Of a DNA stretch of 64,000 nucleotides, positions 1 through 17,198 are shown piece after piece. The notes beneath the pieces are model-generated. The model searched no databases and was not told where the DNA came from. It saw only the letters and a list, made by a program, of their open reading frames with translations. Every line of letters starts with the position of its first letter. The stretch's first letter is position 1. The position numbers and the translations under genes are program-made. This DNA comes from Pseudomonas sp. AL03 (lineage in GTDB: Bacteria; Pseudomonadota; Gammaproteobacteria; Pseudomonadales; Pseudomonadaceae): positions 62,001-126,000 of the forward strand of contig NZ_JASBRE010000007.1 in NCBI RefSeq assembly GCF_029960815.1. Direction: 5' to 3'.

Positions 1-291
1 TAAAGCAAGTTCGATGTCGATACGTTGCAGGCCGCGCTGGCTCAACTCTTCACGAATACGCAAAGGGCCATAACCGGAACGGGCACGGTAGGAAACAAAG
101 CTTTCGAGATAGCGGGACTCGGACAGCAGGCCTTCTTCCGTCAAACGGTCGAGTGCCGTGTCGATCATTTCAGGAAGGGCGCCGCGTTGGCGCAGTTTAC
201 GCGTCAACTCGACTCGACCGTGCTCGCGTCGCGCGAGCAGGTCCATTGCGGTTCGCCGCACCGCGACGAGTGTATCGAGTACGGCGGTCAT
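1..291 (-). CDS. recX: RecX family regulatory protein, 3'-truncated by window edge
   Basis: RecX binds RecA filaments and limits RecA activity. Reading the minus strand from the ATG at 291 gives an open frame to the left edge that begins [13 protein letters not shown] and contains the RecX-type three-helix stretch [19 protein letters not shown]. The start lies about 8 bases after the recA stop, the usual recA-recX arrangement, so the two are probably co-transcribed under the LexA box upstream of recA. About 97 codons are visible and the C-terminus lies outside the window. Identification is confident from residues and synteny. Confidence 0.9.
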
Positions 292-299
292 CGGTTCAA

Positions 300-1352
300 T
301 CAGATATCAGCGTCAGCCAGGTCATCAGCCGTCTCTTTGACCGGCGATGCTTTAACGTCCGGCGCTGGAGTCAGCAGTTTGTCGCGCAGCTGCTTCTCAA
401 GTTTCGTGGCGATTTCCGGGTTGTCCGCCAGGAACTTGGCCGAGTTGGCTTTGCCCTGACCGATCTTGGTGCCTTCGTAGGCATACCAGGCACCGGACTT
501 CTCGACGAAACCGTGCAGAACACCCAGGTCGATCATCTCGCCGTTAAGGTAGATGCCCTTGCCGTAAAGAATCTGGAACTCGGCCTGACGGAACGGCGAA
601 GCGACCTTGTTCTTCACAACCTTGACGCGGGTTTCGCTACCGACAACCTCATCACCTTCTTTCACCGCGCCAGTACGGCGGATGTCCAGACGAACCGAAG
701 CGTAGAACTTCAGCGCGTTACCACCGGTAGTGGTTTCCGGGCTGCCGAACATCACGCCGATTTTCATGCGGATCTGGTTGATGAAGATCACCAGGCAGTT
801 GGCGTTCTTGATGTTACCGGTGATTTTACGCAGCGCCTGGGACATCAGACGGGCTTGCAGGCCCACGTGCATGTCACCCATTTCGCCTTCGATTTCAGCT
901 TTTGGTACCAGAGCTGCTACGGAGTCAACGATGATCACGTCAACCGCGTTGGAACGCACCAGCATGTCGGTGATTTCCAGGGCCTGCTCGCCGGTGTCCG
1001 GTTGCGAAACCAGCAGGTCGTCGACGTTGACGCCCAGTTTGCCGGCGTATTCAGGGTCGAGGGCGTGCTCGGCATCGACGAATGCGCAGGTCGCGCCGGC
1101 TTTTTGAGCCTGGGCGATCACCGACAGTGTCAGCGTGGTTTTACCGGAGGATTCAGGACCGTAGATTTCAACGATACGGCCTTTTGGCAGACCGCCAATG
1201 CCGAGCGCAATGTCCAGACCCAGAGAGCCAGTGGAGATAGCCGGGATCGCCTGACGGTCCTGATCGCCCATACGCATTACGGCACCCTTGCCGAATTGAC
1301 GTTCGATCTGACCCAGGGCTGCAGCCAAGGCTTTCTTCTTGTTGTCGTCCAT
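300..1352 (-). CDS. recA: Recombinase RecA
   Basis: RecA catalyses strand exchange in homologous recombination and, on single-stranded DNA, triggers self-cleavage of LexA and CI-type repressors. The 350-residue product has the Walker A motif GPESSGKTT near residue 66 and the typical MAW and L1/L2 regions. I chose the ATG at 1352 (MDDNKKKAL) because GAGGA sits 6 bases upstream; a longer GTG-initiated reading has no such site. A LexA box lies upstream. This is relevant to the neighbouring tailocin, whose repressor carries a RecA-stimulated cleavage signature. Confidence 0.98.
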
Positions 1353-1392
1353 TAAAGTCCTCACGTAATCAATAAGGCCTGACGGCCAAAAC

Positions 1393-1408
1393 CTGTATAA
1401 GTAGCCAG
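1393..1408 (-). promoter_or_regulatory. LexA-binding SOS box of recA
   Basis: The 16-bp sequence CTGTATAAGTAGCCAG fits the gammaproteobacterial LexA consensus CTG-N10-CAG. It lies about 40 bases upstream of the recA start codon, where a repressor would block the promoter. SOS control of recA is standard; the exact start of transcription was not determined. Confidence 0.85.
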
Positions 1409-1435
1409 TATTATTCCACAGCGTTTCAGGATCGC

Positions 1436-1936
1436 CTACCCCTGATTTGAGATTTCTTCAGCGGTATGGCGCAGCAGCCCCTCTAGCGCGGCCTTCACCG
1501 TTTGTCGGCGGACCTCGTCACGGTTACCGGGAAAGTGCTGCACCTCGCTGAACACCTGCTCACCAACGCCCCAGGCCAGCCACACGGTGCCCACCGGCTT
1601 GCTCGGCGAACCGCCATCCGGCCCCGCCACACCGCTGACCGCCACGGCAAAACGCGCCTGGCATTTTTTCTGCGCGCCTCGGACCATGGCCTCGACCACC
1701 TCGCGACTGACCGCCCCCACCGTCGCAAACAACTCGACCGGGACATTCAATTGCTCGGTTTTCTGGGGGTTGGAGTAAGTGACATAACCGGCCTCAAACC
1801 ATGCCGAACTCCCCGGAATCCGGGTGATCGCCTCGCTGATCCCGCCGCCGGTACAGGACTCGGCGGCGGTGACATGGGCATTGAGAACCTGCAAACGCCT
1901 GCCAAGTTCAGCGGCCAGTTGGGTGATTTCTTTCAC
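1436..1936 (-). CDS. cinA: CinA C-terminal family nicotinamide-nucleotide amidase (PncC)
   Basis: This family deamidates nicotinamide mononucleotide in NAD recycling. The protein (about 166 residues) is the stand-alone CinA C-terminal domain. It has the AESCTGGG signature near residue 28, the catalytic-type serine region TYSN, and the [10 protein letters not shown] motif. I prefer the GTG at 1936 (MKEITQL) because AGGAG lies 6 bases before it; the ATG at 1942 would overlap that ribosome site. It forms the left border of the tailocin; cinA/recA on one side and mutS on the other is a known tailocin site in fluorescens-group pseudomonads. Confidence 0.9.
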
Positions 1937-2016
1937 GGTCATCTCCTGAGCAAGCGGAATGAGAACTACCGTACACGAGCGGATAACGCTTGCAAGGCGC
2001 AGGATCGATCAAAATG

Positions 2017-2535
2017 TTAGCGAGCGAGGGCTCTGATATAAGCCTGACAGGCCTGCAGGGCAATCAGAGCGCTGTCACCGGCGTCGGTGATGGTGATAAT
2101 TCGTTGAGCATGCGTCGGATCAAGTCGGGCACGCGCGGCTCCATGATCCACGCCGCCGGTGCTGGAGGCGGTTGGCACTCCACAGGCCGAGGCGGCGTCA
2201 TTGGCATCGAGGAGGACTGACAGGCGCAGATCAGCAGTGGCAAGACGATCGCGCAGGCGACCTTGATCACGTTGGGCATCGCTAAGCGCTCGGTAATGGT
2301 TTTGTTCGCTGGTCGAAAGACGCTGCTCCAGTGCTAGACGCTTGCCCTGCTCGGTCTGTTGCTGCGTCGCGGCTGCCTGGGTCAGCAGATTCAGCGCCTC
2401 GGCATGCAACCTGGCCTGTTCCGCCAGTTGCCGGCCATACCGCCAATCCTGAAACTGCCAGGCCAGCGCCGCCGAGCCACCGGCCAACACAGCCAGAAAC
2501 ACAACAACGCCAATGACGCGGTAAGACATCGGCAT
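2017..2535 (-). CDS. Inner-membrane spanin (Rz-like lysis protein)
   Basis: Rz-type spanins join the inner membrane to the outer-membrane Rz1 lipoprotein and fuse the membranes in the last step of lysis. The product has one N-terminal membrane segment (YRVIGVVVFLAVLAGGSAAL) followed by a long periplasmic coiled coil rich in Gln, Ala and Glu (about residues 30-115). The ATG at 2535 overlaps the endolysin stop as TGATG; an ATG at 2529 and one at 2553 are alternatives. A second reading frame for Rz1 is nested inside. Function is inferred from topology and position. Confidence 0.75.
   Translation of the reverse strand: MPMSYRVIGVVVFLAVLAGGSAALAWQFQDWRYGRQLAEQARLHAEALNLLTQAAATQQQTEQGKRLALEQRLSTSEQNHYRALSDAQRDQGRLRDRLATADLRLSVLLDANDAASACGVPTASSTGGVDHGAARARLDPTHAQRIITITDAGDSALIALQACQAYIRALAR
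2064..2279 (-). CDS. Rz1-like outer-membrane spanin lipoprotein, nested in Rz gene
   Basis: This 71-residue product lies wholly within the Rz-like gene in a different frame, the classic Rz/Rz1 layout. It has a short signal peptide ending in a lipobox-like LLICAC, so Cys20 would be lipid-modified. The proline-rich mature part (MTPPRPVECQPPPAPAA) is typical of Rz1 proteins. Together with the inner-membrane spanin it would complete outer-membrane disruption when the tailocin is released. Confidence 0.72.
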   Translation of the reverse strand: MPNVIKVACAIVLPLLICACQSSSMPMTPPRPVECQPPPAPAAWIMEPRVPDLIRRMLNELSPSPTPVTAL

Positions 2536-3098
2536 CAAACCGAAGGCGGGCATAACACCGCCCTCGCCCGTGCCCAGAGTTGCAAACGGTCTTGCAGCCC
2601 GTTCAGGCCGCCGTTGATGCGGCGGGTGATGCTGTTGAACTGGTCGCGGTCGGCCAGTTCGTTGAAGCCATTTTGCTCCCAGAACCACGCGGCCGACTCG
2701 GCGGCCCACTGCGGTTGCTCCAGTAGTTCTGGCAAAAACAGTAAACGATCATCACCGAAGAGTCCGAGACTGCACTGAAGGTAATTGTCGCGACCAGTGA
2801 TCTGAATCAGGCCTCGGCCACGGTACTTTTGACCGTCGCCGTCCGGCTCCGGAGTGTTACCCAACCGGGCAGCGAGGGAACCGGTATCGTATTTGCCGAG
2901 GTATCGATTACTCCCCAACTCACGCACGTACTGCAACTGCCCTGACTCGTGACCCACTTGTGCGAGGAAGGCGGCGACGCGTTTCGGGGTGTTGATGTTG
3001 CGGTGGGCCATGGCGGTGTTGAGGGCGGAAATGAAAACACCCGCTTGAGGGCGGGCGTTGGGGAAAATTTGTTGCAACTGCGCTGAAGTGAGAGACAT
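2535..3098 (-). CDS. Glycoside hydrolase family 19 endolysin
   Basis: The 187-residue protein matches the chitinase-like GH19 fold used by phage and pyocin endolysins to cut peptidoglycan glycan strands. Visible motifs are VGHESGQ, with the putative catalytic Glu near residue 50, and RGRGLIQITGRDNY around residues 93-106. It starts 3 bases after the upstream chaperone stop. There is no signal peptide, so passage through the holin is expected. It acts in producer-cell lysis rather than target killing. Confidence 0.88.
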   Translation of the reverse strand: MSLTSAQLQQIFPNARPQAGVFISALNTAMAHRNINTPKRVAAFLAQVGHESGQLQYVRELGSNRYLGKYDTGSLAARLGNTPEPDGDGQKYRGRGLIQITGRDNYLQCSLGLFGDDRLLFLPELLEQPQWAAESAAWFWEQNGFNELADRDQFNSITRRINGGLNGLQDRLQLWARARAVLCPPSV

Positions 3099-3101
3099 GG
3101 G

Positions 3102-3506
3102 TCATGTTCCATTTGCCGTTGTTTTAAACCAGACCGGCGCCAGGGGTTTGCTGAAGTCTTTTGGAAAGTTGGCTAGCGAGGGCCAGTCGCGCAGATCCTG
3201 CCGGTAATCCAGCAGTTCATGATATTGATCGCTGCTCAAAGCCAACGGAGTGCCGGCAGCTTGCTCATCGCGATCACGGTCGACCAGCCATTGGCTGGCG
3301 GCCAGTTCCTGGTTCCGCCAGGCTCGGGCAACTGTGGCTGGTTCAGGTTCTGCCTCCGGATCGTCTTCCAGCACGGCGAGCAACGGCACGCCACCACTCG
3401 CCAGCCATTGCTGGTATTCATCCCAGAAACGGTGATGCCGAGGCACGGTTGCTCCGTCAGGCAGACGAATGACAGTGGCCGGGTCTTTAGTGAGTTGATA
3501 GTGCAT
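3102..3506 (-). CDS. Tail fibre assembly chaperone 1
   Basis: Tail fibre assembly proteins help fold and trimerise the adjacent fibre. The 134-residue product begins MHYQLTKDP. The start at 3506 is fixed by a strong AAGGAGG 8 bases upstream, within the end of the fibre gene. The C-terminal half (ARAWRNQELAASQWLVDRDRDE and a following LLDYRQDLRDWP) is the common core shared with the chaperone at 6517-6942. It is paired with the fibre at 3520-4731. Confidence 0.82.
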   Translation of the reverse strand: MHYQLTKDPATVIRLPDGATVPRHHRFWDEYQQWLASGGVPLLAVLEDDPEAEPEPATVARAWRNQELAASQWLVDRDRDEQAAGTPLALSSDQYHELLDYRQDLRDWPSLANFPKDFSKPLAPVWFKTTANGT

Positions 3507-3519
3507 AGGGAAAACCTCC

Positions 3520-4731
3520 TTAAAGTTCGGCATCGGCGGTGGCGTGGATGTAATAAGTCTGAGTAACCAGCCCGATATCGGAGTTATCTACCCAGATGCC
3601 GCGAGTCGACACCCCAAGAGGTCGAGCATTAGCCGATGAAACTTCATCGCTCCCCGAACGCCATTGCCCAGCGACCCCCTTCGAAGTAGTGGTAAACAAA
3701 CTGAGACTTGGAATAGCTCTCTTCTCAACCTTGAAGGTCCACTGAGCCAAGGGCTGTGAGGCAAAGCTCGTTTGCCCCTGTTTCACTGTGGATAACAGCG
3801 CACCGTAGGGACCTGTCATGCTTCCAGGCGGCAGATCCTGGCTATAGGTTTTTTCGTAATAACGCTGACACATCATCAACTCATCGCCAGGGCTACGGAG
3901 CTCGAACGGCGTCGACACCCGCCCCTCTTCCAACTGGATCTGCGCCAGGTCTATAACCTGCAAAACATTCAACGGCAGGTCAAAGGAGAGCCGCAGAAAG
4001 TCATTGCCACTACTTCCCAACGTTTTGCCCGCCAGGGACGGTACTTGAATCGTCGAGCTGTATCGGGTCCAGGAGGTTTTGAGTTGAAAGCTGCCAACCG
4101 GCGTCACGGTATCCACACTACCGCCCGCTCCGCAATACTGCGCGACAGTCACATTGAGTTGACGCGCCGTGTCGGCCTTGGCCCAGAACGTCAGCGTCGC
4201 GGTTTTCCCCGCCAAGGTCCTGACCGACTCGATAGCCTGGGAAATTTTATGCACGCTGGCGCCAACTCCCGCAGTGATTTGCTGCCAACGCATAAAGTAA
4301 CGGGGCTCATTGGGCACCTCACCCTGACCCAGCGCAAAGCTCTGCCGGGAAATATTCACCCCGGCGTTTCCGTTCCAGTCGCAACGAAAACGGTCAGCGA
4401 TATAAGCACCGGTGTAAGGCCCCAAGTTGACTGTACCGCGCTGCCAGATATCGAAGTTGCCATTAATCAGCAGGTTTTTGCGATAAACCTGCACCGGAAA
4501 ACTCTGTTGGGGGTCGAGTTTCGCCAACTCTTTAATGGCCAGGCTCAACTGATCATTTTGATTCTCGGAAGGCATCAGTCCCGCGGCGGTGATGGCGTTG
4601 AGAATTTCCTGGGTGACGCTGTTACCCCAACTGGCTGGAATCAGGGAGCCGGGAGTTCCGGCTATCGGGTTTTCATCGGCAAATCTACCGTTGACCAGTC
4701 CTGCACTGGGGACGCTTTTTGGATAGTCCAT
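3520..4731 (-). CDS. Tail fibre protein 1, carbohydrate-binding C-terminus
   Basis: Tail fibres determine which cells the tailocin binds. This 403-residue protein opens with MDYPKSVPSAGLVNGRFADE, a roughly 50-residue module also found at the starts of the fibres at 5342-6436 and 6994-7674. After this comes a domain opening with NLLINGNFDIWQRG and rich in Trp, Tyr and beta-type sequence. It resembles the carbohydrate-binding regions of phage fibres. The C-terminus is unlike those of the other two fibres. The ligand is unknown but is probably lipopolysaccharide. Confidence 0.82.
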   Translation of the reverse strand: MDYPKSVPSAGLVNGRFADENPIAGTPGSLIPASWGNSVTQEILNAITAAGLMPSENQNDQLSLAIKELAKLDPQQSFPVQVYRKNLLINGNFDIWQRGTVNLGPYTGAYIADRFRCDWNGNAGVNISRQSFALGQGEVPNEPRYFMRWQQITAGVGASVHKISQAIESVRTLAGKTATLTFWAKADTARQLNVTVAQYCGAGGSVDTVTPVGSFQLKTSWTRYSSTIQVPSLAGKTLGSSGNDFLRLSFDLPLNVLQVIDLAQIQLEEGRVSTPFELRSPGDELMMCQRYYEKTYSQDLPPGSMTGPYGALLSTVKQGQTSFASQPLAQWTFKVEKRAIPSLSLFTTTSKGVAGQWRSGSDEVSSANARPLGVSTRGIWVDNSDIGLVTQTYYIHATADAEL

Positions 4732-4773
4732 TTGATCTACTCAAGTTGTAGGGCATAAACACAGGCAGTGCAG

Positions 4774-5334
4774 TTACTCGGTCGAGCCTGGAACCTGAGG
4801 CCAGTCGATCTCTGCAGGAAAGGTTGCTTGCCGTTCAAGGCGATTCAACTCAACGCTGTAGAGTTTCCATTCCATCAATGCCAGTTGCTCATCGTGAGTG
4901 CCGTCGCCGATATCTTCGGCATATTGAAGCGGGGCTATACGCAGGACTGCGTCACGAAGTAGCGCGTCTCGCTTGGTGAACACCTGATTCCTGACATCCG
5001 CCAATCGCGCCTGGTCATCCGACTCCCAGGTGTTATCACGCCAGACATAAAACTCACCCGGCCATGGAATCGTGGTAAAGGCGTCAGGCAGCTCCCCAAG
5101 TTCACTCCAGATCTGCTGAGCCCCGCCCTCTTTGCGATACACCAGACCGCGCCGGTCGATCACTTCGCGCGGGACATTATTGACCAGTGCCCATGTACGG
5201 CCCTGTTCCGGAGGCGGCAATTCAAATGAAAGTTCAACGGCATTACTGGGCAGTTGAATACCGATTCCCGGCGTCACGAAGAACTCCACGGGCCCCGACA
5301 AGGCGCCCGAGTTATCAATCAGATAATTAAACAT
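4774..5334 (-). CDS. Tail fibre assembly chaperone 2
   Basis: The 186-residue protein starts at MFNYLIDNSG, 7 bases after the stop of the fibre at 5342-6436; a longer upstream frame overlaps that fibre and is not credible. The C-terminal part (VRNQVFTKRDALLRDAVLRI then ALMEWKLYSVELNRL) is the typical fibre-assembly chaperone helix pair. The N-terminal part is longer than in the other two chaperones, suggesting it is matched to its own fibre. Function is inferred from family and position. Confidence 0.78.
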   Translation of the reverse strand: MFNYLIDNSGALSGPVEFFVTPGIGIQLPSNAVELSFELPPPEQGRTWALVNNVPREVIDRRGLVYRKEGGAQQIWSELGELPDAFTTIPWPGEFYVWRDNTWESDDQARLADVRNQVFTKRDALLRDAVLRIAPLQYAEDIGDGTHDEQLALMEWKLYSVELNRLERQATFPAEIDWPQVPGSTE

Positions 5335-5341
5335 GGACACC

Positions 5342-6436
5342 TCAGATAAGTTTGATGCGGCCGGGATAGGCGATGTTGCGAGGACGGGATTTGAAGAGAT
5401 AGAGCAAGGTGCCGGCAGGATCCATCTGGTAACTGGTTCCGGCCGGATAGATGGGGCCGCCATTGCTGAGCGAGCCGATATATTGTGGCTCCTCACGGGT
5501 GTCGGCACCGACGGCAGCCAGACTGTCACTCCATCGTGACCCTACTGCACCGCCGCCATTCGCCCCCATGGCATAGGAATGAGAAGTTCCGGGCTGGAAG
5601 GCACCCACTACACGCCCGGCATCCACGCCACGGCCTTCGTCCAGAACCCTTAAAAACTCCCCGCGATTTTCAGGTCCACGGAACGTCAGCGCACCGTCAC
5701 CGCTAGTCCACTTACCTTCGTTCCCGACCCGCGCGGCCTCGGTCCCGAGCATTCCCGATTGCTGGGCGTGATCCCACAACCACGGCCACTGCGCACGGTT
5801 CATGACCGAGCCGTTGAGTGCCCCATAGCCACCGGGACTGAGCAGCGTGGTCGTTTCGAAAAACGGTCGACCCAAGGGGGTATTGTCAAACCGCCCCACC
5901 GGCCACCAACTGCCAGCGCCATCACTGCGCAGATGCCACCAGTCACCACCGCCCATCAGTACGAGAAACGTATAACCGGCTGCCGAAAGATGGGTATGAA
6001 ATTTGAGTCGGTCAGTGCCGGCAGCCCGGATAACGAGGCGGTTACCGCTATTGTCTACGCGTCGAAGAATGACGTCGCGAACGCCCATGGCAACGTTGGC
6101 TGGCGGAAGAGTGATGGTGGCGGCGCCGGGGCTTGCATCAATCAACACCAGACCGAGTTCTTCCGGCGCCAGCAGCTTTGATGCCGCTAGCCGGGTGACC
6201 ACCGAACGCATCGGGCTCGTCACGCCAATGATCGCCTGGATGGCCTTGAGCAACTGGCCGTTGTCCGCCTCCAACGGCGCCATTCCGGCGCCGGCCACCA
6301 CACTCAAAATCTCTTGCGTAACAGCATTGCCCCAAACCGCTGGTATCAACGATCCGGGCGAACCGGCCACCGGGTTTTCGTCAACAAACCGTCCATTGAC
6401 CAGCCCGACACTGGGGACGCTTTTTGGATAATCCAT
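5342..6436 (-). CDS. Tail fibre protein 2, tail-collar type
   Basis: The 364-residue fibre starts MDYPKSVPSVGLVNGRFVDE, nearly the same N-terminal module as its two paralogues, which probably docks to the same baseplate site. The C-terminal half has a phage tail-collar pattern (LTFRGPENRGEFLRVLDEGR, then VVGAFQPGTSHSYAMG) seen in receptor-binding fibres. An AAGGAATG ribosome site precedes the ATG. It differs from fibres 1 and 3 beyond about residue 60, so it could give the particle another target range. Confidence 0.82.
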   Translation of the reverse strand: MDYPKSVPSVGLVNGRFVDENPVAGSPGSLIPAVWGNAVTQEILSVVAGAGMAPLEADNGQLLKAIQAIIGVTSPMRSVVTRLAASKLLAPEELGLVLIDASPGAATITLPPANVAMGVRDVILRRVDNSGNRLVIRAAGTDRLKFHTHLSAAGYTFLVLMGGGDWWHLRSDGAGSWWPVGRFDNTPLGRPFFETTTLLSPGGYGALNGSVMNRAQWPWLWDHAQQSGMLGTEAARVGNEGKWTSGDGALTFRGPENRGEFLRVLDEGRGVDAGRVVGAFQPGTSHSYAMGANGGGAVGSRWSDSLAAVGADTREEPQYIGSLSNGGPIYPAGTSYQMDPAGTLLYLFKSRPRNIAYPGRIKLI

Positions 6437-6516
6437 ATTTCATTCCTTGTCTGGAATATTCATTGGAGATACCGATAGCGCGCTTGAATCAAAGCGTTCA
6501 TACCAGCGGTATCCGT

Positions 6517-6942
6517 TCACTCGACAGTCATCCAGACTGGCTTTTTTGGACGCGAGCGTTTGGAGGGAAACTTCTTCGCCTGAGGCCACTTGCGCAGTGC
6601 CTGCAGATAAACCAGCAGCGCCTGATAGTCAGTGTCGGAAAGCGTGGTGGCCTTCATCAGTTCCAACTCGTCCCGATGTCGGTCGCGAAGCCAGACCACG
6701 CGCGCAAATTCGTTGTCGCGCCATGCCTTGGCTTCCTGCAAAAGTTGTTCTTCCGAGAGCGGCGCAAGTTCAACCAACACCGGCAGGCCCTGATCGTCAT
6801 GAGATCTATCTGTTCCCGCCTTCGGATTGGCAATCACCGCGCTATAGCATTCGTCGTCAATTTCAACGGCATCTTCGGGAAGCCTGGTGTGATAACCCGC
6901 CAGGTAGGTGTTACCGGTACTGCGGCTATAAAAACGCTTCAT
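6517..6942 (-). CDS. Tail fibre assembly chaperone 3
   Basis: The 141-residue product starts at MKRFYSRSTGNTY (ATG at 6942, with GGGGA upstream) and carries the shared chaperone core (AKAWRDNEFARVVWLRDRHR, then QALLVYLQALRKWP). It follows fibre 3. The start codon lies one base after a stop codon in another frame, and that stop would have ended a full-length fibre 3, which supports the view that fibre 3 has suffered a frameshift. Confidence 0.8.
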   Translation of the reverse strand: MKRFYSRSTGNTYLAGYHTRLPEDAVEIDDECYSAVIANPKAGTDRSHDDQGLPVLVELAPLSEEQLLQEAKAWRDNEFARVVWLRDRHRDELELMKATTLSDTDYQALLVYLQALRKWPQAKKFPSKRSRPKKPVWMTVE

Positions 6943-6993
6943 TTCAGTTCCCCACACTCAGGACAGCGATCCAGCCAGTACCACCGGAATTGC

Positions 6994-7674
6994 TCATGAC
7001 CTGAACCTGACGGCGTCAAAGTAAGTGACCAGGGGTGCTGTAGTGATATCAACAAACGGAGCGTTCCCCGAGTGCGAATAACTGGCCCATGCGCCCCGGC
7101 ACTGGTTTTTAAAGGCCAGTGGCCAAGGTTTGGATACGTAGCCGCCATTGACGCTGATAGAAACCTGTACCCACTGAATCATGAAGCCGCCCAGCCAGGC
7201 CGGAAACGCGATGTAGCCGTTTTCCGCAAAACTGTAGGAGACACCCAGACAGAGTTTTTTCGGTGTCACGATTGTGGTGTCGTCTGCTGCGGCATTGACT
7301 TGGGCTTGAGAAGCGATGCGTGCCCAGCCAAAGATCGACTCTGTCGCTTGCACCACTTTCTTTTCTATCGCCTGAAACACCCGTAGCGGCGTCATCAATC
7401 GACTGCTGCTTGCTCCTGACTCAGCTTCTTCCTTGCTCGCGAAAGAGTCGGCCTTGTTCTTCTCGACAATCACCGAGATCGCCGCTCTGAGCTGAGTGCT
7501 ATCCGCTTCAGCAGGCACAAGACCGGCGGCGGTTATGACATTGACGATTTCATCCGTGACGCTGTTGCCCCACCTCGCCGGAATCAACGACCCCGGCGTC
7601 CCCATCAACGGGTTCTCATCCACAAACTTCCCATTCACCAACCCGGCGCTGGGCACACTTTTCGGATAGTCCAT
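6994..7674 (-). CDS. Tail fibre protein 3, probably shortened by a C-terminal frameshift
   Basis: The 226-residue fibre has the shared start MDYPKSVPSAGLVNGKFVDE. Its C-terminal domain (GFMIQWVQVSISVNGGYVSK, then PWPLAFKNQCRGAWASYSHS) is like the small receptor-binding tip domain of phage gp53-type fibres. The frame ends early at VTYFDAVRFRS, where the tip strand would be expected to continue. An alternative frame reads QVMSNSGGTGWIAVLSVGN and stops one base before the next gene, as tight operon spacing would predict. A one-base loss near 7000-7030 would explain this. It is first of the three fibre genes transcribed. Confidence 0.78.
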   Translation of the reverse strand: MDYPKSVPSAGLVNGKFVDENPLMGTPGSLIPARWGNSVTDEIVNVITAAGLVPAEADSTQLRAAISVIVEKNKADSFASKEEAESGASSSRLMTPLRVFQAIEKKVVQATESIFGWARIASQAQVNAAADDTTIVTPKKLCLGVSYSFAENGYIAFPAWLGGFMIQWVQVSISVNGGYVSKPWPLAFKNQCRGAWASYSHSGNAPFVDITTAPLVTYFDAVRFRS

Positions 7675-7687
7675 CCACCTCTACTCC

Positions 7688-8287
7688 TTAGTCATAATTG
7701 ATGTGCACCTTGGTATGCGCCGGTGCGCTGCGATGGATCTGGCATTCCAGTGCAGAACCCGGGTTCATACCGAAGCGTTCGCCCCAGTAACTGGCGCCGA
7801 AACGTCGGCCCAGCAGCAGGCGGCCACCGGTGTTCAGCGTCCACATGAAATGCGCCTGCCATGTTCCGAAATGCGTCTGGCCAAACCGGGCCCGTCCCAT
7901 TCGCGGGACTTCAAGCTCGGTGATGGTGGCGTTCGGGTACCCCTGACTCTTGGCGATCTCGACGTAGTAGCTGATGGCTTGGCTGCCAACAGCGAGCAGT
8001 CGACGGCGTACGGCGAGGCGGCGGTCGTCGAACAGTGGCGTCGCGCCCAGGCACGGGTCGGGCAGGTTCATCACCCGCTCCCAATCCGGCACCAGTTCGC
8101 TGACGCCGGCGGGGTCCATTTCGTTGAGCAGGTCGGCGGCGCGGGCGTCGAGGCGGGCCAGTTCCTGGGCGACGCCTTCAAGGACTTCTTCAAGTTCCGG
8201 GACCCGCTCGGGGTCCCACGCGGGACCGCTGGGTAGCAGGCTGCGCAGTTGGGCCCGGTATTGTGCGGCGGTTCTGATCACTGCCAT
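7688..8287 (-). CDS. Baseplate wedge protein, Mu gp48/YmfQ-like (DUF2313)
   Basis: The 199-residue product resembles the Mu gp48/YmfQ family, which lies between baseplate J and the fibres and belongs to the baseplate wedge. The N-terminal part AQYRAQLRSLLPSGPAW is typical. I chose the ATG at 8287, which has GGAGG 6 bases upstream; a TTG at 8293 is also open. It overlaps the baseplate J stop by 10 bases. The C-terminus (ALECQIHRSAPAHTKVHINYD region) also fits the family. Confidence 0.82.
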   Translation of the reverse strand: MAVIRTAAQYRAQLRSLLPSGPAWDPERVPELEEVLEGVAQELARLDARAADLLNEMDPAGVSELVPDWERVMNLPDPCLGATPLFDDRRLAVRRRLLAVGSQAISYYVEIAKSQGYPNATITELEVPRMGRARFGQTHFGTWQAHFMWTLNTGGRLLLGRRFGASYWGERFGMNPGSALECQIHRSAPAHTKVHINYD

Positions 8288-9318
8288 ACGCAACCTCCGA
8301 AGGTCAGCAACTGGTTGCTCTCGGCTTCGACGTCGGCGGTAGGTGACTTGAGACCGTGATCACTTTCGCCGGTTGCGCTGCTGATGGCTTCACGGATGTG
8401 ACTTACCAGCAAAGTGTCGCCCAGGCCTCCTTCGCGGTTATGCAGATCGCGCAGTTGCGCTTCAACAGCGGCGCGTACGGCCGTGGTGTCGGGCTTCAGG
8501 TTCAGTCGGTAGGTCACCGGCACTTGTACCGGTGGCAGCACACGCAACTCGGCGGTGACCGGGCGCAGAGGTTCGATGTAGGCCTTGACTTCAGCCAGTT
8601 GCTCGGGATTGGGGACGGGTTTCGCATCGTCGTCCCGCATGATGTACAGACTGACAATGCCGGGGCCGGGATAGCTGCCGCGACACCAGGCACGGGTCAC
8701 CCCCGGACATTCAAGCGCCCAGGTTTCGTAGTCTTGCGCCGAACCGCCGTGAGGAATGATCCGGTAAGAACGAATCACCCGGGACCGCAGGGATTCCAGA
8801 CTTTCTCGAGCGATTCCGCCGGTCAACCCCGGCGCCAGCACCGTGAAGCTGTTGCCGATAATGCCCAGAATCGGCTGCACCGGAATCAGCGTCATGCCGG
8901 CGTCGGCATTCCCGAGACTGCCGGCGTCGAGGGCGGCGATGGTGGTGCTGTTCAAGCCATTGCTGGTGGTGCGGGCGGAAGTGACTTTGTAAATGCGACC
9001 GTCGTTCGATTGCAGCAGAGTATCGACGTCCAGCACAGCGCCAGCGCTGGCGGTAAAGCTGACGCTGCCACTGGCCGATTGTGCGGCTTTGCGCGGCTGG
9101 TTAAGACGCAGTGCGGCGATCCGTTCCAGGGTCGACTCATCGGCCTTGTCCGGAAGGATCTGCTCGGCGATCCAGTTCAGATAGCCATACAGACCATAGG
9201 CGGCGCCACCGAGGGTGCGGGCCAGCACTTGCGCATCGGACTGGCGCAGCGAATCGCTGGCCAGGTCGCTTTGGGTGCGCTTGATCAGCACCGGCAGCGA
9301 AGGGGTTTCAAACGGCAT
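8278..9318 (-). CDS. Baseplate J-like protein (Mu gp47 homologue)
   Basis: This 346-residue protein matches the baseplate J/gp47 family, which forms the wedge ring linking the central hub to the fibres. The characteristic block is found in the middle (GGIARESLESLRSRVIRSYR, then PHGGSAQDYETWA) and is followed by CPGVTRAWC. It overlaps the gene before it by 11 bases and the gene after it by 10, consistent with translational coupling. Confidence 0.9.
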   Translation of the reverse strand: MPFETPSLPVLIKRTQSDLASDSLRQSDAQVLARTLGGAAYGLYGYLNWIAEQILPDKADESTLERIAALRLNQPRKAAQSASGSVSFTASAGAVLDVDTLLQSNDGRIYKVTSARTTSNGLNSTTIAALDAGSLGNADAGMTLIPVQPILGIIGNSFTVLAPGLTGGIARESLESLRSRVIRSYRIIPHGGSAQDYETWALECPGVTRAWCRGSYPGPGIVSLYIMRDDDAKPVPNPEQLAEVKAYIEPLRPVTAELRVLPPVQVPVTYRLNLKPDTTAVRAAVEAQLRDLHNREGGLGDTLLVSHIREAISSATGESDHGLKSPTADVEAESNQLLTFGGCVWQ

Positions 9319-9706
9319 AGATCACCTGCCAACTGTTATCAGGGTTGATGTCCAGGCGCTCGCCGTCGGCCAGGGTCAGGACCGTGCGCAGGTTCAGGCG
9401 CTGAGCGTCGAGGCGTTCGCTGATGATGTCGATGGCGCTGCAGTGGCCGTCGTCGATCAGCCATTGCAAGGCTTCGCGGGCATAGAACTCGGCGTCCATC
9501 TGGGTCTGTCGGGTCAGCTTGACCCGCCGCAGCAGCCACAGGCGTGAGCCGATACGGTCGTCCGCGACCGTAGGAAAGGTGTCGCCCCACCAGCCGAAAC
9601 GTTCTTCGTCATCGAGGGCATCGTCATCGGCGGCGCGGCGCCAGGTGAACAGGCTGATCAGCACTGAACGGGTCAGTGCGGCGTGGAGGTTTTGGCTGAT
9701 AAACAT
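9308..9706 (-). CDS. Phage GP46 family baseplate protein
   Basis: The 132-residue protein matches Mu gp46, a small wedge component related to T4 gp25. The N-terminal stretch (ALTRSVLISLFTWRRA, then FGWWGDTFP) is characteristic. The ATG at 9706 overlaps the stop of the spike gene as TGATG; a GTG immediately before it is an equivalent alternative. Its position between the spike and baseplate J is conserved in Mu-like tails. Confidence 0.87.
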   Translation of the reverse strand: MFISQNLHAALTRSVLISLFTWRRAADDDALDDEERFGWWGDTFPTVADDRIGSRLWLLRRVKLTRQTQMDAEFYAREALQWLIDDGHCSAIDIISERLDAQRLNLRTVLTLADGERLDINPDNSWQVIYAV

Positions 9707-10215
9707 CACTGGCCTCCCGCCGGCACGCCGGTCTGGCCGTTGCCCGCCTGCACGCCGACGTGCACGTGCTTGATCTGGCTGATGCCACCGGCAATCTGAT
9801 CGCCCTGAGAGACGATCTTGCCGGTCTGGTTCAGGGTCGGTGTGTCGATATTTACGGCAGTGCTGGCGCGGATGTTCAGGGTGGTGGTTTCGATGTCGAT
9901 GATCCGTCCACGCTTGAAGTGGATCTTGTCGCCTTCGTCGGTGTAGATCGCTACTTCGCCCTGGGCCAGTGCCTTGAGGCGATAGCGGCGGTCGGCGACC
10001 ACCAGCACGATGGCGTGAGAACGATCGCCACCCAAAAACGTGGCGATACCTTCAGCACCGGCCAGCGGATTGCTGGTGAAACCGTAGGGTTCGAAGTGTT
10101 CCATGTCGTCGTTCACTTCACCGGCGGTGAGGCGCATTTGCAGGGATTGAAGCTTGGTAGCCGAGTTGGCGAGCACGACAGTGCCGCGCGCCAGGAGGCG
10201 TGTCAGTAGGCTCAT
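9706..10215 (-). CDS. Baseplate assembly protein V / spike (Mu gp45 homologue)
   Basis: Gp45/V-type proteins form the membrane-piercing needle under the tube. The 169-residue product has an N-terminal OB-like domain, the conserved GFTSNPLAGAEGIATFLGG stretch, then a short beta-helix region. It ends with an HVHVG motif like the metal-binding H-x-H apex of contractile tail spikes. The start at 10215 (MSLLTRLLARG) has AAGGTAA upstream; an upstream ATG was rejected for lack of a ribosome site. A single TGTAGGAGC-type sequence lies just upstream. Confidence 0.88.
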   Translation of the reverse strand: MSLLTRLLARGTVVLANSATKLQSLQMRLTAGEVNDDMEHFEPYGFTSNPLAGAEGIATFLGGDRSHAIVLVVADRRYRLKALAQGEVAIYTDEGDKIHFKRGRIIDIETTTLNIRASTAVNIDTPTLNQTGKIVSQGDQIAGGISQIKHVHVGVQAGNGQTGVPAGGQ

Positions 10216-10251
10216 GTGGATTACCTTGTAGGAGCGAGGCATAGCGGGGTG

Positions 10252-11292
10252 TCAGGTTTTTGGAGGCACCGGGTTCGCATCGAAGGTGTAAGGCGGCGCC
10301 ACTAGAAGTGTGGTGACCGAGCCCTGTTCGGACAGCGAGTAAGTCACCTTGGAGATCAGCATGTCGTGGTCAAAACCCAATACCTTGTCGATCACCCGCA
10401 CCAAGGTGTTGTGCTTCCACAAATCACCGTTGGATTGCCGCCAACCTTGTACCCGATAGGTCGTGGTGCCAGCCTTGCCGACGCGAACACCGCTTTCCCA
10501 ATCGGCACGCTGCTGCGCCAGTTCCGGGGTCAATTGCGCGCTTTCGTTGATCACGGTGATCCGCTTGCGCCCGATAATCGGGTCGGTGGAAACCCCGGAC
10601 ACTTCGCTCACGGCCGCACCGCTCTTCTCGTCGCCGCCCTTGTGCTGACCGATCACCCGGTACTCGGAGAACACCTGGCTGAAGTCCATCGGCGCGTTGG
10701 CCGACAGAATATTTTTGCCCAGCTCAAGCACATCACTCGCTCGCCCGCCGCTGCCCGGCCGGGCCAGTACTACCCGACCTTCAGCGTCATCGGTGGAAAA
10801 CACCCGAAACAGCGTGAGCAAGCGGTCGATCGACTGAAAGACCGTTTCCCCCGGCACGATGGTGTGGCTGCCGAGCCGCGTGGTTTCCGGGATTTCGCTG
10901 ACCACTTTCCCGGCATAGGGCGCGGCCAGCGCTTCGACGATGCTGAGTAACGATTGCTGATGCCATTGGTTGGGCGTGTTGATCGCCGCACAGTCCACCA
11001 GGTCCTGAGTCTTTGAACTGCCTTCGATACTCAGGCTGATCTGCCGCCCGTCATAGCTGATCGGCGCCTTGAACACATACCCGCTGAGCACCAGATCGCA
11101 ACCGATTCGCACTTGGCAGGGCGCACCCGGACGAATGGGTCGGTCGACCGTCTGCCCTGGCCATTGCCAGGTGATATCGAGCTTGAAAGTGCGGAACTGG
11201 CGCTCTAGGTCCGCGGTGATTTCAACGCTTTTCCAGCCGCCATACTCCAGACCGTCAACGGTCAGCAACACGCTGTTGTCGAGTTCATTCAT
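10252..11292 (-). CDS. Baseplate hub protein, Mu gp44 / late control D-like
   Basis: The 346-residue protein resembles Mu gp44 and related hub proteins that cap the tube and hold the spike. Features include an N-terminal beta domain (WKSVEITADLERQFRTFKLD) and a middle region GETVFQSIDRLLTLFRVFST that is well conserved in this family. It lies between the DNA-circulation-type protein and the spike gene, as in Mu. No enzymatic motif was seen. Confidence 0.87.
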   Translation of the reverse strand: MNELDNSVLLTVDGLEYGGWKSVEITADLERQFRTFKLDITWQWPGQTVDRPIRPGAPCQVRIGCDLVLSGYVFKAPISYDGRQISLSIEGSSKTQDLVDCAAINTPNQWHQQSLLSIVEALAAPYAGKVVSEIPETTRLGSHTIVPGETVFQSIDRLLTLFRVFSTDDAEGRVVLARPGSGGRASDVLELGKNILSANAPMDFSQVFSEYRVIGQHKGGDEKSGAAVSEVSGVSTDPIIGRKRITVINESAQLTPELAQQRADWESGVRVGKAGTTTYRVQGWRQSNGDLWKHNTLVRVIDKVLGFDHDMLISKVTYSLSEQGSVTTLLVAPPYTFDANPVPPKT

Positions 11293-11295
11293 GGT

Positions 11296-12534
11296 CTATT
11301 TCCCCAGGACTTTTACGTCGTCCAGCGGGAGAAAACCCGGATGAATAATGCCGTTGCGCTGTAGTACTTCAGCGATTCGCGTGGCGTCTCCACTTTGCTG
11401 ATAGATCACGACCAGCCCCGGAAGGCTTTGCTTGAAAGACTTGCTGACCAGTCGAACGCCGGACGACGCGACCGCTTTCAAATGCGCCCGGAGCGCCTGG
11501 CGCAGATTGCTCATCGCCAGATAGTGCGCAGGATCCGCCTTGGCCTCGGGCAGCTTGAACACTTCCTCAAGTGCCACACGCAAGGCCTCTAAATCGTCGA
11601 CCACCGGAACGTCCTGGTGCGTGGTCGGTTGCACAGCCTGATGCCCGACCGGCAGGTTGGTGACCCGCTTGACTGCCTGCGAAGCCACCGGCATCGACGC
11701 GACCCACTGGGCCATTTGCACAATCAAAGTGTCCTGCACCAGATTGGTCAGCGCCTGGGCCGCAGCGGTGGTGTCCTTGCCGGTGGTGAGCTTCGGCGCA
11801 TCGGCCTTCTTGATGGCTTCGACCTGTTGGGAGACGTTGGCAATCACGCCACGATAACCTTCACGGGCGAAGTCCTTCAGTTCGTTGATGTCGCCGATCA
11901 ATCCCTTGAATTCCGCCGCCACGTCCTTGGGCAGTTCCTTGACGGCTTTGACCAGATCGCTGATCTGCTGGTACTCATCGATCAACGGCTGAAGGTGCTG
12001 CTGAATCACCTCGTAAGCCTCCTTGATGCTGTTGCGCAGGTTGGCAATGCCGATCCGCGCAGCCTTGATCAAAGTCATCGCGTCTTCGAAACGCTTCACT
12101 GCGGAGCCCAGCAAGCTGTCGGCCGACACCAGCAATAGCTTCTGCGTACTGACCGCCGCCGTCGGAAACGGCACCGGTTGATCGGGGTAAAACTTCAGGG
12201 TAAAGGTCACCAGCCCGCCGTCCTGGCGGGTGTGAGTCATGTCGCATTCGCCGACCTTGACCTGCAGACGTCCCAGCCACGGGTGAACCAGCTCACCACT
12301 GCCCTGCTCCAGCGCCTTGAGCAGTTTGTCGCGCTGCTCCAGGCAATCGGGGCCGACGATAAATGCGGTCAGATCGTGAATCTTCGCCTGCAGGCCAAGG
12401 CCCTCGAAATACGGCAGATCGCGCTGCGGGTACTCGTGCAACTGGCCCTTTTGGCCGACCGAGTTTTTCGCCTGATCGACCCAGAACTGGACGCCGCGAA
12501 ACGACGCCGGCATCAAACGATCACGCCAGCTCAT
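11296..12534 (-). CDS. DNA circulation N-terminal domain tail protein (Mu gp43 homologue)
   Basis: The 412-residue protein starts MSWRDRLMPASFRGVQFWVD, the usual opening of the phage DNA-circulation N-terminal family, which is a tail/hub component despite its name. The rest is rich in helices. The ATG at 12534 has GGAGG upstream and overlaps the tape-measure stop by 14 bases; the longer open frame into the tape-measure gene is ignored. The order gp42-gp43-gp44-gp45 is that of Mu. Confidence 0.87.
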   Translation of the reverse strand: MSWRDRLMPASFRGVQFWVDQAKNSVGQKGQLHEYPQRDLPYFEGLGLQAKIHDLTAFIVGPDCLEQRDKLLKALEQGSGELVHPWLGRLQVKVGECDMTHTRQDGGLVTFTLKFYPDQPVPFPTAAVSTQKLLLVSADSLLGSAVKRFEDAMTLIKAARIGIANLRNSIKEAYEVIQQHLQPLIDEYQQISDLVKAVKELPKDVAAEFKGLIGDINELKDFAREGYRGVIANVSQQVEAIKKADAPKLTTGKDTTAAAQALTNLVQDTLIVQMAQWVASMPVASQAVKRVTNLPVGHQAVQPTTHQDVPVVDDLEALRVALEEVFKLPEAKADPAHYLAMSNLRQALRAHLKAVASSGVRLVSKSFKQSLPGLVVIYQQSGDATRIAEVLQRNGIIHPGFLPLDDVKVLGK

Positions 12535-14083
12535 TGGAACCTCCAAGGGACAGTGTGCGGTAGCCGATGCGCGAATTGAGCGCCAGCGCCGGTTGATTGG
12601 TTTGCGGCTGATCGGTGCGCATGCCGGCCGGCGCATTTTCGAAGCGCACGGTCAGGCCGCCTTCGAGTTGTGTGCGGCTGTTGGCGGCGCTTTGCTGAAT
12701 CAGGGCGTTGGAGTTTTGTGTCAGGGATCCAGGCTGCATCGAGGGTTTGTGCGGCAGATTACCGGGCAGCACCGACAGGCTTTGTGGTTGCTCGGTATCG
12801 GTGCCAAAAAACGCCGGCGCAAACTTACCGTTGCCTTCGGCATTGGTTTTTTCTTGAGCCTCGGTCAGGCCTTCGACCTTGCCGGTCACACTGGCGACAA
12901 GACTGCCGAAACCACCGGCAAAGAATTCCTTGATCGGCGCGACGACGCCTTGCAGCTTGTCCCACCATTGGCTGAACCATTCGGTGATCGGCTCCCAACG
13001 CTTTTTGATCTCCTCCAACGGAAACCAGTCAAACAGGCTGCGCAGCGTGCCGTACATCACCAGCGCCGGGACCTTGATGCTGTCCCAGATACCGGAAAAC
13101 AATTCGGTGACCGCGCCCCAGCCAGCGATGATCAACTCCCGCGGCGACCAGTCGAACAGGCCGTGCAGAAAGTCCATGACCGGCACCGACAGCGCTCTGA
13201 GCAAGTCCCAGATGGCCGAGAACAGGCCCGTCAACGGAGTCCAGTTGCTGATGATCAAACCCAGTGGTGACCAGGAAAAAAGCGTCTGAAAAAATCCGAT
13301 TACCGGCGTGGCCGCCGCTTTGATGACGTCCCAGATCGCCGCGAACACGGCGGTGATCGGTCCCCAATGGCTGATGATTTGTCCCAGCGGCGTGAACGCA
13401 AACATCGTCCTGAAGAACTCGACCATGGGCATCACGACCGGAGAAATCTTTTGCCAAAGCCCGGCGAAGAACGCCGAAATGGGTTTCCAGTTGGCCACAA
13501 TCAAACCGGCTGCCAAGGCGATGCCCGTGGCAATCAACACGATGGGATGGGTCTTGAGCACCCTGTTCATCAGATCGAACACTTGGGTCGCGCCGGTCAC
13601 GGCGGTTTGCATCGCCGAAAACGCAATGGCACCGGCCGCAATTCCCTCGACCAGCTTCGGGTTGTCATTGAGCAGACTGCCAAAGCCAATGAGCAGCGGC
13701 TGAAGCCCTGCCGTGACGGTCGCGACGGCAGGTTGTAACGCGGTATTAGCGGCAGCCGACACCTGCTCCATCGACCGACTGAACACATTCATGGTTTGCG
13801 CGGCGCTGGTCGGTACGCTCGGCACATCGACACCTTTGGCGGCCTCATTGACCTCGGTCAATTGGCCCTTGAACGCAGCGGAGGCCTTGATCCCGTCCAC
13901 GAAGGGCGTGATCACGCTGCCACCCTTGAACAGACCGCTGATATCCAGCTTGCCCAGCCCGGTTTGTTCAAGATGTGTTCTGAAGCCCTCGACCTTCGCT
14001 CGAAGGCCGGCGAGCCTGGGGGTCAGTTCATCGATCCCGGTCAGCCGGACCGACTTTTCATCTTCCTTTTCTATGTCTGCCAT
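12521..14083 (-). CDS. Tail tape measure protein with 41-residue repeats
   Basis: Tape measure proteins set tail length. This 520-residue product is short for the class. It contains a hydrophobic segment (IVLIATGIALAAGLIVANW) near residue 180, followed by about four and a half tandem 41-residue repeats. Each has a Trp near its start, then an F-x-x-x-W core and a terminal WSPLGLIIS-like turn (about residues 200-385). The C-terminal 100 residues are low in complexity. The ATG at 14083 overlaps the chaperone E' stop (TGATG). Confidence 0.9.
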   Translation of the reverse strand: MADIEKEDEKSVRLTGIDELTPRLAGLRAKVEGFRTHLEQTGLGKLDISGLFKGGSVITPFVDGIKASAAFKGQLTEVNEAAKGVDVPSVPTSAAQTMNVFSRSMEQVSAAANTALQPAVATVTAGLQPLLIGFGSLLNDNPKLVEGIAAGAIAFSAMQTAVTGATQVFDLMNRVLKTHPIVLIATGIALAAGLIVANWKPISAFFAGLWQKISPVVMPMVEFFRTMFAFTPLGQIISHWGPITAVFAAIWDVIKAAATPVIGFFQTLFSWSPLGLIISNWTPLTGLFSAIWDLLRALSVPVMDFLHGLFDWSPRELIIAGWGAVTELFSGIWDSIKVPALVMYGTLRSLFDWFPLEEIKKRWEPITEWFSQWWDKLQGVVAPIKEFFAGGFGSLVASVTGKVEGLTEAQEKTNAEGNGKFAPAFFGTDTEQPQSLSVLPGNLPHKPSMQPGSLTQNSNALIQQSAANSRTQLEGGLTVRFENAPAGMRTDQPQTNQPALALNSRIGYRTLSLGGSNELA

Positions 14084-14854: not shown

Positions 14855-14870
14855 GGTGTTTCTCCCTTCA

Positions 14871-14896
14871 AATAAAAAGCCCACGCGTGGTGGGCT
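14871..14896 (-). terminator. Terminator-like hairpin between sheath and tube genes
   Basis: On the minus strand a 7-bp perfect stem (AGCCCAC/GTGGGCT) with a 5-base loop is followed by TTTTTATT. It lies inside the tail operon, so it may act as an attenuator that makes sheath message more abundant than downstream messages, or be passed by antitermination. Confidence 0.7.
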
Positions 14897-14921
14897 GAAA
14901 TCACACAGTCAAGGGCAGCGA

Positions 14922-17181: not shown

Positions 17182-17198
17182 GGTGTTTTCACCGGGCA

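Follow-up and report, generated by a model that had tools for sequence, protein, structure and literature searches.

A candidate ordered array of tail fibre cassettes in a probable R-type tailocin of Pseudomonas sp. AL03

One fibre per tailocin is treated as typical in the part of a review drawn on here (PMC12090994), which also asks for the reason. The chromosomal mutS-cinA interval of Pseudomonas sp. AL03 (draft assembly, 98 contigs), recognized by Pfam matches to its flanking genes, raises the question of what three fibre genes with a common beginning are doing in one locus. We analysed a window of 64,000 nucleotides that includes this interval (Table 1). Sheath, tube, baseplate, repressor, endolysin, and spanins are all present by Pfam or PHROG profiles, a gene content that points to what is probably an R-type tailocin, the kind of headless contractile tail of phage origin with which bacteria kill their relatives. 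Its fibre genes form a multi-fibre array, which sits between the gp48 baseplate gene and the lysis genes. Among the scanned ORFs, some small ones excepted, there was no capsid or terminase match; the ORF at 16597-17355 matches phrog_209, labelled portal protein.

Table 1. Features of the tailocin locus and its flanks (window positions; SD, Shine-Dalgarno)
Feature	Position	Strand	Evidence and remarks
recA	300-1364	-	Pfam; chromosomal flank beside cinA
cinA	1436-1942	-	Pfam; chromosomal flank, same side as recA
Endolysin	2535-3098	-	Glyco_hydro_19 1.6e-6; phrog_181 endolysin 5.4e-72; downstream neighbour of the fibre array
Chaperone 3	3102-3506	-	Phage_tail_APC 2.5e-9; strong SD, -12.8
Fibre 3, 403 aa	3520-4731	-	ORF; docking module, CBM4-like domain 84-270, distal tip; phrog_4492 1e-116
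Docking-module repeat copy, fibre 3	4516-4731	-	Repeat family D1 4565-4731; module 72 residues
Chaperone 2	4774-5331	-	Caudo_TAP 3.3e-19; phrog_105 3.2e-37
Fibre 2, 364 aa	5342-6436	-	ORF; docking module and collar-type tip; phrog_1858 2e-53, phrog_523 tail collar 2.3e-11
Docking-module repeat copy, fibre 2	6221-6436	-	Repeat family D1 6270-6436; module 72 residues
Chaperone 1	6517-6942	-	Phage_tail_APC 1.9e-7; phrog_188 4.5e-33
Other-frame stretch coding C-terminal residues of fibre 1 relatives	6947-7009	-	tblastn, 90% to L012_1 residues 223-243
Fibre 1, 226 aa as read	6994-7674	-	ORF; docking profile; docking module 1-72, short shaft, gp53-like tip
Docking-module repeat copy, fibre 1	7459-7674	-	Repeat family D1 7508-7674; module 72 residues
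gp48-like baseplate wedge protein	7688-8275	-	Phage_Mu_Gp48 1.1e-27; phrog_203 baseplate wedge 2.2e-60; upstream neighbour of the array
Baseplate, hub, tape measure, tube, sheath genes	8278-16493	-	Pfam: Baseplate_J, GP46, Mu_Gp45, GpP, DNA_circ_N, Tail_tube, Phage_sheath; tape measure phrog_4200
PrtR-like repressor	18173-19033	-	HTH and Peptidase_S24; PrtR name by analogy with the Q8r1-96 record
mutS	19103-21697	+	Pfam; opposite chromosomal flank

Translation of the ORFs bore out the original prediction that three fibre genes here each begin MDYPKSVPS-GLVNG. Its claim that an assembly chaperone of its own comes after every fibre also held, all three chaperone matches (Phage_tail_APC, Caudo_TAP, and Phage_tail_APC) exceeding their Pfam cut-offs. 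The tip types that it proposed are less evenly founded. The gp53-like C match of fibre 1 (3.4e-5) falls just short of the Pfam cut-off, with a score of 24.7 against 24.9; the profile of its fibre type weakly resembles the R1 pyocin fibre foot (E 0.017). The "collar" label of fibre 2 is without a Pfam match and is based on PHROG matches and on a Q8r1-96 protein annotated as tail collar. For fibre 3, the carbohydrate-binding Pfam match is below its cut-off (E 0.0021), and the predicted fold of residues 84-270 matches CBM4 (Z 13.9, 2.6 A over 147 residues) in a structure model of low overall confidence (mean pLDDT 44.8), of which only the CBM-like region was used and in which residues 84-121 have pLDDT below 50. 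The model of fibre 2 is poor overall (mean pLDDT 51.2). In the phage collection, full-length matches to the fibre bodies have at most 39% identity among the matches listed, Q8r1-96 for fibre 2 excepted.

In 14 pairwise comparisons, dN/dS was 0.03-0.22 for the docking modules, 0.08-0.29 for the chaperones, and 0.065-0.31 for the fibre bodies (2 of the 14 not computable), values that are rough because several dS exceed 1. Fibres 2 and 3 and all three chaperones have open frames, and the ratios point to purifying selection on them.

The shared N-terminal module exists as predicted, but it extends over about 70 residues and not about 50. Identity of the DNA begins at the start codon and drops to background beyond about +210 nt, after which the bodies are wholly unlike, as had been claimed. 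At the protein level, 42 of the 72 module columns are invariant across the three fibres. The corresponding DNA repeat, D1, was the first repeat family listed for positions 1-14000; it is 167 nt long, the reference copy being matched by the other two at 71 and 74% identity, and all three copies have the direct orientation originally described. Searched with the module, the AL03 genome gave these three matches and no others, at E 0.001 and at 1e-6. Inverted repeat pairs in positions 1-14000 are no longer than 26 nt and no more than 85% complementary, the fibre gene ends are not inverted, and the scanned ORFs had no invertase match among the general Pfam and PHROG profiles. Between cassettes there was no excess of internal promoters (1, against a shuffle mean of 1.7) or terminators (7, against 6.1).

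We compared this array with 80 named loci. They are the best 80 among 124 matches to gp48, and the sample accordingly leans towards relatives of the window. Two loci cut by contig ends (L054 and L080) were left out of the complete-array and substitution counts, and one partial module match in L034 was dropped. Three to six fibres are carried by 50 of the 79 complete loci in this kin-leaning set, and the assumption of one or two fibres for most tailocins fails for these relatives. Among 199 evenly drawn genomes of the genus, one per species and scored by the module alone, at least 22 contain a cluster of three or more docking modules. By this measure, arrays of several fibres seem to be an exception, though a common one.

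The fibre bodies were clustered into types, of which T01 to T10 are names coined in this analysis. In the related loci, the types fall into a series of slots: a (T09, T10, or T07), b (T02), c (T01), d (T03), e (T05, T06, or T07), and f (T04 or T08). The array in the window is T07-T01-T04. Recurring type pairs stand in the majority order in 310 of 324 cases, where the maximum of 500 shuffles was 0.70; for the nine main types without T07 the count is 272 of 276 (maximum of 1000 shuffles, 0.685). At clustering thresholds from 45 to 80 the ordered fraction was 0.907-0.987, against no more than 0.703 in shuffles. The order is not absolute, because T04 comes first in L016 and L018; T07, too, is found in two slots. 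With loci treated as independent, T05 with T06 and T04 with T08 were each expected to co-occur 5.5 times in the 51 arrays with at least three fibres and never do so. These 51 loci hold 38 different arrays. Ordered fibre slots have no account among the literature matches listed, and an earlier description is possible. The idea that docking modules serve as slot addresses was rejected, since T04 and T08 share the last slot and their modules are no more alike for it (0.61-0.62).

Slot order might be fixed by a dosage effect of position, that is, by functional constraint and not by cassette exchange, a reading that we consider unlikely. It would suit so strong an order, and Shine-Dalgarno medians are indeed stronger in the first-slot types (T09, -10.25; T10, -8.3) than in the last-slot types (T04, -5.4; T08, -5.3). 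The trend is not monotonic, however, with T01 in slot c at -5.8 and T05 in slot e at -8.5, and the displaced T04 and the two positions of T07 also argue against it.

Not all three AL03 fibres may be serviceable. Fibre 1 is shorter than its six relatives that stand first in their arrays, which have 243 aa, and alignment with 13 relatives places the loss at its C-terminus. The last 21 residues of the L012 relative were recovered in another frame of the window (Table 1). In this sequence, then, fibre 1 is frameshifted in its last codons; the shift may mean a damaged tip or may be an assembly error. The original prediction did not mention this frameshift. With fibre 1 shifted, the working set of this strain is probably fibres 2 and 3, and unless the frameshift is an assembly error, the strain may field these two good fibres.

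Such damage would fit a locus with one functional fibre, probably 2 or 3, in which the others are remnants being lost; we think this rather improbable. The Shine-Dalgarno value of fibre 3, the weakest of the three (-2.4, against -8.6 and -5.4), points the same way, as does a break test on closed fibres, in which all 5 broken among 245 occurred in arrays of three or more. In that test, which had reference proteins for 15 of the 33 fibre types, no break was seen in 203 of the 208 closed fibres from arrays with at least three, nor in any of the 37 from smaller arrays, a difference that is not significant. The test flags fibre 1 and passes fibres 2 and 3, leaving more than one intact fibre frame, and the selection apparent on these two fibres and on all three chaperones likewise argues against decay.

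The fibres could instead occupy different places on one particle, for example as long and short fibres that are all required together. The range of their lengths would allow this, and some phages bear several receptor-binding proteins per particle, according to the part of PMC11414711 drawn on. We nevertheless hold it to be quite improbable, given that all three fibres have the identical type of docking module and that a single fibre stands at the same place in 21 of the 79 complete loci, including the nearest backbone relative, L056.

If the slots are kept, their contents seem not to be. For arrays of three or more, on the tailocin-backbone tree (built without L080), the numbers of changes of T01 to T10 were all within the range of 60 label shuffles (T04, 17 against 16.2; T03, the lowest, 14 against 16.9), though with 47-51 arrays such parsimony counts can say little about rare types. 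On a cinA-recA tree of 75 rows, from which five module loci with too little cinA-recA were excluded and L080 was absent, nine of the ten types were within the shuffle range, and T03 had some signal (reached by 4 of 100 shuffles). Over all 80 rows of the backbone tree, T01, T02, T03, and T05 do follow the tree (0, 0, 0, and 1 of 60 shuffles).

Docking module, body, and chaperone stay together through this turnover. When docking modules were paired with their nearest counterparts in other loci, both partners came from the same body type in 212 of 247 cases, and the nearest following gene pairs with the same fibre type in 198 of 218. On these pairings, the cassette of all three parts is what moves, as a whole. 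Two comparisons illustrate this. L017 and L020 are 91% identical until slot f, have unlike cassettes there (T08 and T04), and realign at 93% shortly ahead of the endolysin. In L040, a complete T10 cassette that L036 lacks stands between gp48 and T02. The exchange is inferred from loci of different species. Under looser clustering, T01, T03, and T08 form one family, T02 joins T10, and T05, T06, and T09 group together. These coarse families of distant relatives recur within arrays, so old duplications within arrays are possible.

It had been proposed that recombination between the docking repeats of one array could remove cassettes or swap them, though not invert them. The repeats are direct, as this would require, and exact tracts of at least 20 nt occur in 25 of 344 within-locus pairs (at least 30 nt in 2 of 344; maximum, 52). 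In one- and two-fibre loci, moreover, the module was kept while the body differed in 3 of 8 substitutions at backbone identity of at least 0.93. In arrays of three or more, by contrast, the module was kept (0.85) in 1 of 27 one-for-one substitutions at the same backbone identity, and that one is a frameshifted T08; the median exact tract of within-locus module pairs in such arrays is 13 nt. Homogenisation of docking modules was rejected for the set as a whole, similarity being 0.648 within loci and 0.643 across loci for modules of different types (mean matched difference, +0.0026 over 344 pairs), and swapping through the repeats is consequently not supported. In the window, no exact tract common to two copies is longer than 22 nt (10 and 11 nt for the other two pairs), and 1 of the 51 arrays has two fibres of one type; we regard this mechanism as very unlikely.

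Exchange between strains guided by the flanks fits the locus comparisons better than swapping via docking repeats. We lean towards the view that AL03 carries a small ordered slot array in which recombination guided by conserved neighbouring DNA exchanges or removes entire cassettes so frequently that their content bears little relation to the backbone tree, and the order is kept. On induction, the three fibre genes would be expressed together. All fibres would dock at one baseplate site, since the docking module is common to them, and the cell would release particles that differ in their fibres, which would broaden the killing spectrum. Whole cassettes would be gained, lost, or replaced, most likely through homologous recombination between strains in the conserved flanking DNA, and recombination in such flanks would keep the order while the content turns over.

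Phage Mu has a fibre, S, with an alternative S' and chaperones U and U', and switches fibres by DNA inversion. The docking region weakly resembles residues 42-78 of Mu S (E 0.039); unlike the case of Mu, the AL03 fibre repeat copies are direct. A much closer system is the mutS-cinA tailocin (ssh6 element) of P. fluorescens Q8r1-96 (EU982300; Mavrodi et al. 2009, PMC2647930, drawn on in part). It has the same site and backbone order, with three fibre-chaperone pairs (Orf21/22, 23/24, and 25/26) followed by lys and cinA. The docking module of fibre 1 matches three places in EU982300, and Orf23, the "tail collar protein", is 79.9% identical to fibre 2. In contrast to AL03, its first fibre has another length and annotation, and it carries a colicin M gene. 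The Q8r1-96 annotation is piecemeal, with Orf22 as "tail fibre protein" and Orf25 as an assembly protein.

In P. chlororaphis, an R-tailocin with three fibre genes forms three distinct complexes and has a wider range (PMC12090994). The likeness to AL03 is by description, as docking modules and slots are unmentioned in the part of that review drawn on; by analogy, a broader spectrum from multiple fibres is plausible. With the three pairs of Q8r1-96 and the three fibres of P. chlororaphis, the multi-fibre kind is already known. According to the portion of PMC12208367 used here, P. syringae tailocin fibres also have at least 60 conserved N-terminal residues before they diverge, but there is one fibre per tailocin, downstream of trpG, and recombination replaces the later part of the gene. 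The fibre locus of Pectobacterium carotovoricin passes from one species to another through homologous recombination and has conserved blocks at its flanks (PMC13195805); it differs from AL03 in having an invertase in 172 of 365 loci, and the part of that paper drawn on does not describe whole cassettes in an ordered row.

Tailocin fibres determine which bacteria die. A near-fixed order with near-random content is a clear and testable case of the rearming of a modular weapon, and the comparisons indicate that the unit exchanged in nature is the whole cassette, chaperone included. If this is true, these pseudomonads would draw on a combinatorial repertoire of antibacterial fibres whose addresses persist with neither inversion nor shuffling driven by repeats.

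On the minus strand, gp48 precedes three fibre genes, each with a chaperone gene behind it, and after these come endolysin, spanins, cinA and recA; 5' of gp48 lie the genes for baseplate, hub, tape measure, tube and sheath, a repressor and then mutS. The mutS-cinA tailocin of Pseudomonas fluorescens Q8r1-96 has the same layout, and named Pseudomonas relatives share up to 94% identity with the window in gp48 and 96% in recA, so the host is presumably a Pseudomonas. The original prediction of three fibres with a common N-terminal docking module and a chaperone each was confirmed. The module spans about 70 residues, the three copies are alike in DNA from the start codon onwards and at background level past about 210 nt, and a search of the window's own genome returned three matches.

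Features of the tailocin fibre region and one upstream open reading frame
Feature	Position	Strand	Remark
Spanins	2017-2583 and 2064-2279	minus	3' of endolysin
Endolysin	2535-3098	minus	3' of the three fibre-chaperone pairs
Chaperone 3	3102-3506		
Fibre 3	3520-4731	minus	T04
Chaperone 2	4774-5331		
Fibre 2	5342-6436	minus	T01
Chaperone 1	6517-6942		
Fibre 1	6994-7674	minus	T07
gp48, baseplate wedge gene	7688-8275	minus	directly 5' of the fibre array
ORF matching phrog_209	16597-17355	minus	5' of the sheath gene

The phrog_209 match (E 5.2e-43) carries the label portal protein; among the ORFs scanned, the tailocin cluster that holds it showed neither capsid nor terminase, and the family is perhaps mislabelled or the gene a relic. 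The Shine-Dalgarno sequence is weak ahead of fibre 3 (start 4731; -2.4) and very strong ahead of chaperone 3 (-12.8).

Published sources place three fibre-chaperone pairs at this site in Q8r1-96 (EU982300; PMC2647930), describe a P. chlororaphis tailocin whose three fibre genes are assembled in three complexes (review PMC12090994), and state that tailocin clusters may carry multiple fibre genes (review PMC10598620). The window locus thus belongs to a known kind, and the first reading is partly supported. Fibre 1 is apparently damaged in the window sequence. In an alignment with 13 others of its type, fibre 1 ends early with its final residues unaligned, and the last 21 residues of the relative in locus L012 are encoded in another frame at 6947-7009 of the window with 90% identity. 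Some relatives have intact copies. The frameshift may be an assembly error. The remainder of the gene is under constraint, so the frameshift, if real, is probably recent. A break test, with reference proteins covering 15 of 33 body types, flagged five of 247 fibres (WIN_1, the window's fibre 1, and L037_5, L041_3, L043_2 and L044_4 in relatives), all in arrays of at least three; the excess there was not significant (5/208 versus 0/37 closed fibres).

The C-terminus of fibre 1 is gp53-like, just under the Pfam cut-off, and its intact relatives also fall below that cut-off (scores 20.0-23.1); the profile of its type shows weak likeness to the R1 pyocin fibre foot (E 0.017). PHROG matches and the Q8r1-96 relative identify fibre 2 as collar-type. 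Residues 84-270 of fibre 3 are predicted, from a model of low overall confidence, to form a CBM4-like domain with putative binding function (best Z 13.9, 2.6 A over 147 residues).

A gp48 search found 124 relatives, of which the best 80 from named loci were kept; with the window they make 81 loci and 247 fibres, a set leaning to the window's kin. Among the 79 loci with the array end seen, 21 have one fibre, 8 two, 16 three, 15 four, 17 five and 2 six; the nearest locus by backbone, L056, has one. In an even draw of the genus, the docking module occurred in 66 of 199 genomes (E 1e-6), with at least three clustered modules in at least 22, own genome included, by eye among the matches listed. A second draw of nearest kin, mostly overlapping the first, had it in 5 of 24 (E 1e-20). 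Three genomes carry a lone module far from the array (G002:C11:108352, G019:C1:2887029, G182:C1:4069238), perhaps in prophages able to supply cassettes.

Fibre bodies fell into 33 types (T01 and so on) at the clustering threshold used. From gp48 to the lysis genes the common order is slot a (T09, T10 or T07), b (T02), c (T01), d (T03), e (T05, T06 or T07) and f (T04 or T08); the window array is T07-T01-T04. Majority order was kept in 310 of 324 recurring type pairs (maximum over 500 shuffles, 0.704), and in 272 of 276 for the nine main types without T07. At thresholds of 45-80 order was 0.907-0.987, against at most 0.703 when shuffled. Among the 51 arrays of at least three fibres, T05 and T06 never occur together, nor do T04 and T08 (expected 5.5 each); for the other pairs tested, exclusion was absent or weaker. 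Looser single-linkage clustering joins T01, T03 and T08; T02 and T10; and T05, T06 and T09, so some slots may stem from old duplications. T07 bodies occupy two slots (a and e in L029) with distinct docking-module lineages: module identity is 0.85 among those in the first slot, 0.73 among those in the later one and 0.67 between the two groups.

Content turns over within this order: the 51 arrays comprise 38 different ones. On a backbone tree (80 rows) built from sheath, baseplate J and gp48, the number of changes in T01-T10 presence within arrays of at least three is close to that in 60 label shuffles. The cinA-recA tree (75 rows, 47 with at least three fibres, 100 shuffles) gave the same for nine of ten types, the exception being T03 with some signal (4/100). 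Over all 80 backbone rows, T01, T02, T03 and T05 follow the tree (0, 0, 0 and 1 of 60 shuffles), which is what a multi-fibre array confined to part of the tree would give; T04, T06, T07, T08, T09 and T10 do not (at least 10 of 60). Backbone distance correlates at 0.65 with host-gene distance and at 0.15 with array content.

The unit of turnover in the set examined is the cassette of docking module, body and chaperone. The nearest module in other loci accompanies the same body type in 212 of 247 cases, and following genes go with the same type in 198 of 218. Modules are no more alike within a locus (0.648) than across loci (0.643), with a matched difference of +0.0026 in 344 pairs. Where arrays of at least three differ by one cassette at backbone identity of at least 0.93, module identity is also below 0.85 in all but one of 27 cases, which are locus pairs and not independent events; the exception is a frameshifted T08. 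Whole-cassette replacement and gain are seen in two close comparisons (L017/L020 and L040/L036). Bodies are also swapped behind a retained module, as in 3 of 8 substitutions in loci with one or two fibres. The single-fibre tailocins L070 and L073 (backbone 0.983, module 0.977, bodies of different types) are such a swap. In slot c, window fibre 2 and its L014 counterpart have modules 96% and bodies 68% identical in protein. Among T04 fibres, those of the window and L014 (403 aa) have a chaperone-like gene next, and that of L020 (400 aa) has none, with a gap of 282 nt; an ORF of at least 80 aa follows 11 of 21 T04 fibres.

We propose that the fibre genes would be co-expressed upon induction, that all fibres would use one docking site and particles would carry different fibres, and that flank-guided homologous recombination between strains would exchange cassettes. 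Exchange predicts different nearest kin for different parts of a locus, and among 28 loci tabulated the window's sheath is nearest to L056 (96%), its fibre 3 body to L014 (93%), its fibre 2 body to L055 (86%), and its fibre 1 body and chaperone to L012 (77% and 84%). In the passages covered by the literature search, no description was found of slots that keep their order while their content is near-random. This comparative pattern across relatives is of more interest than the single window locus.
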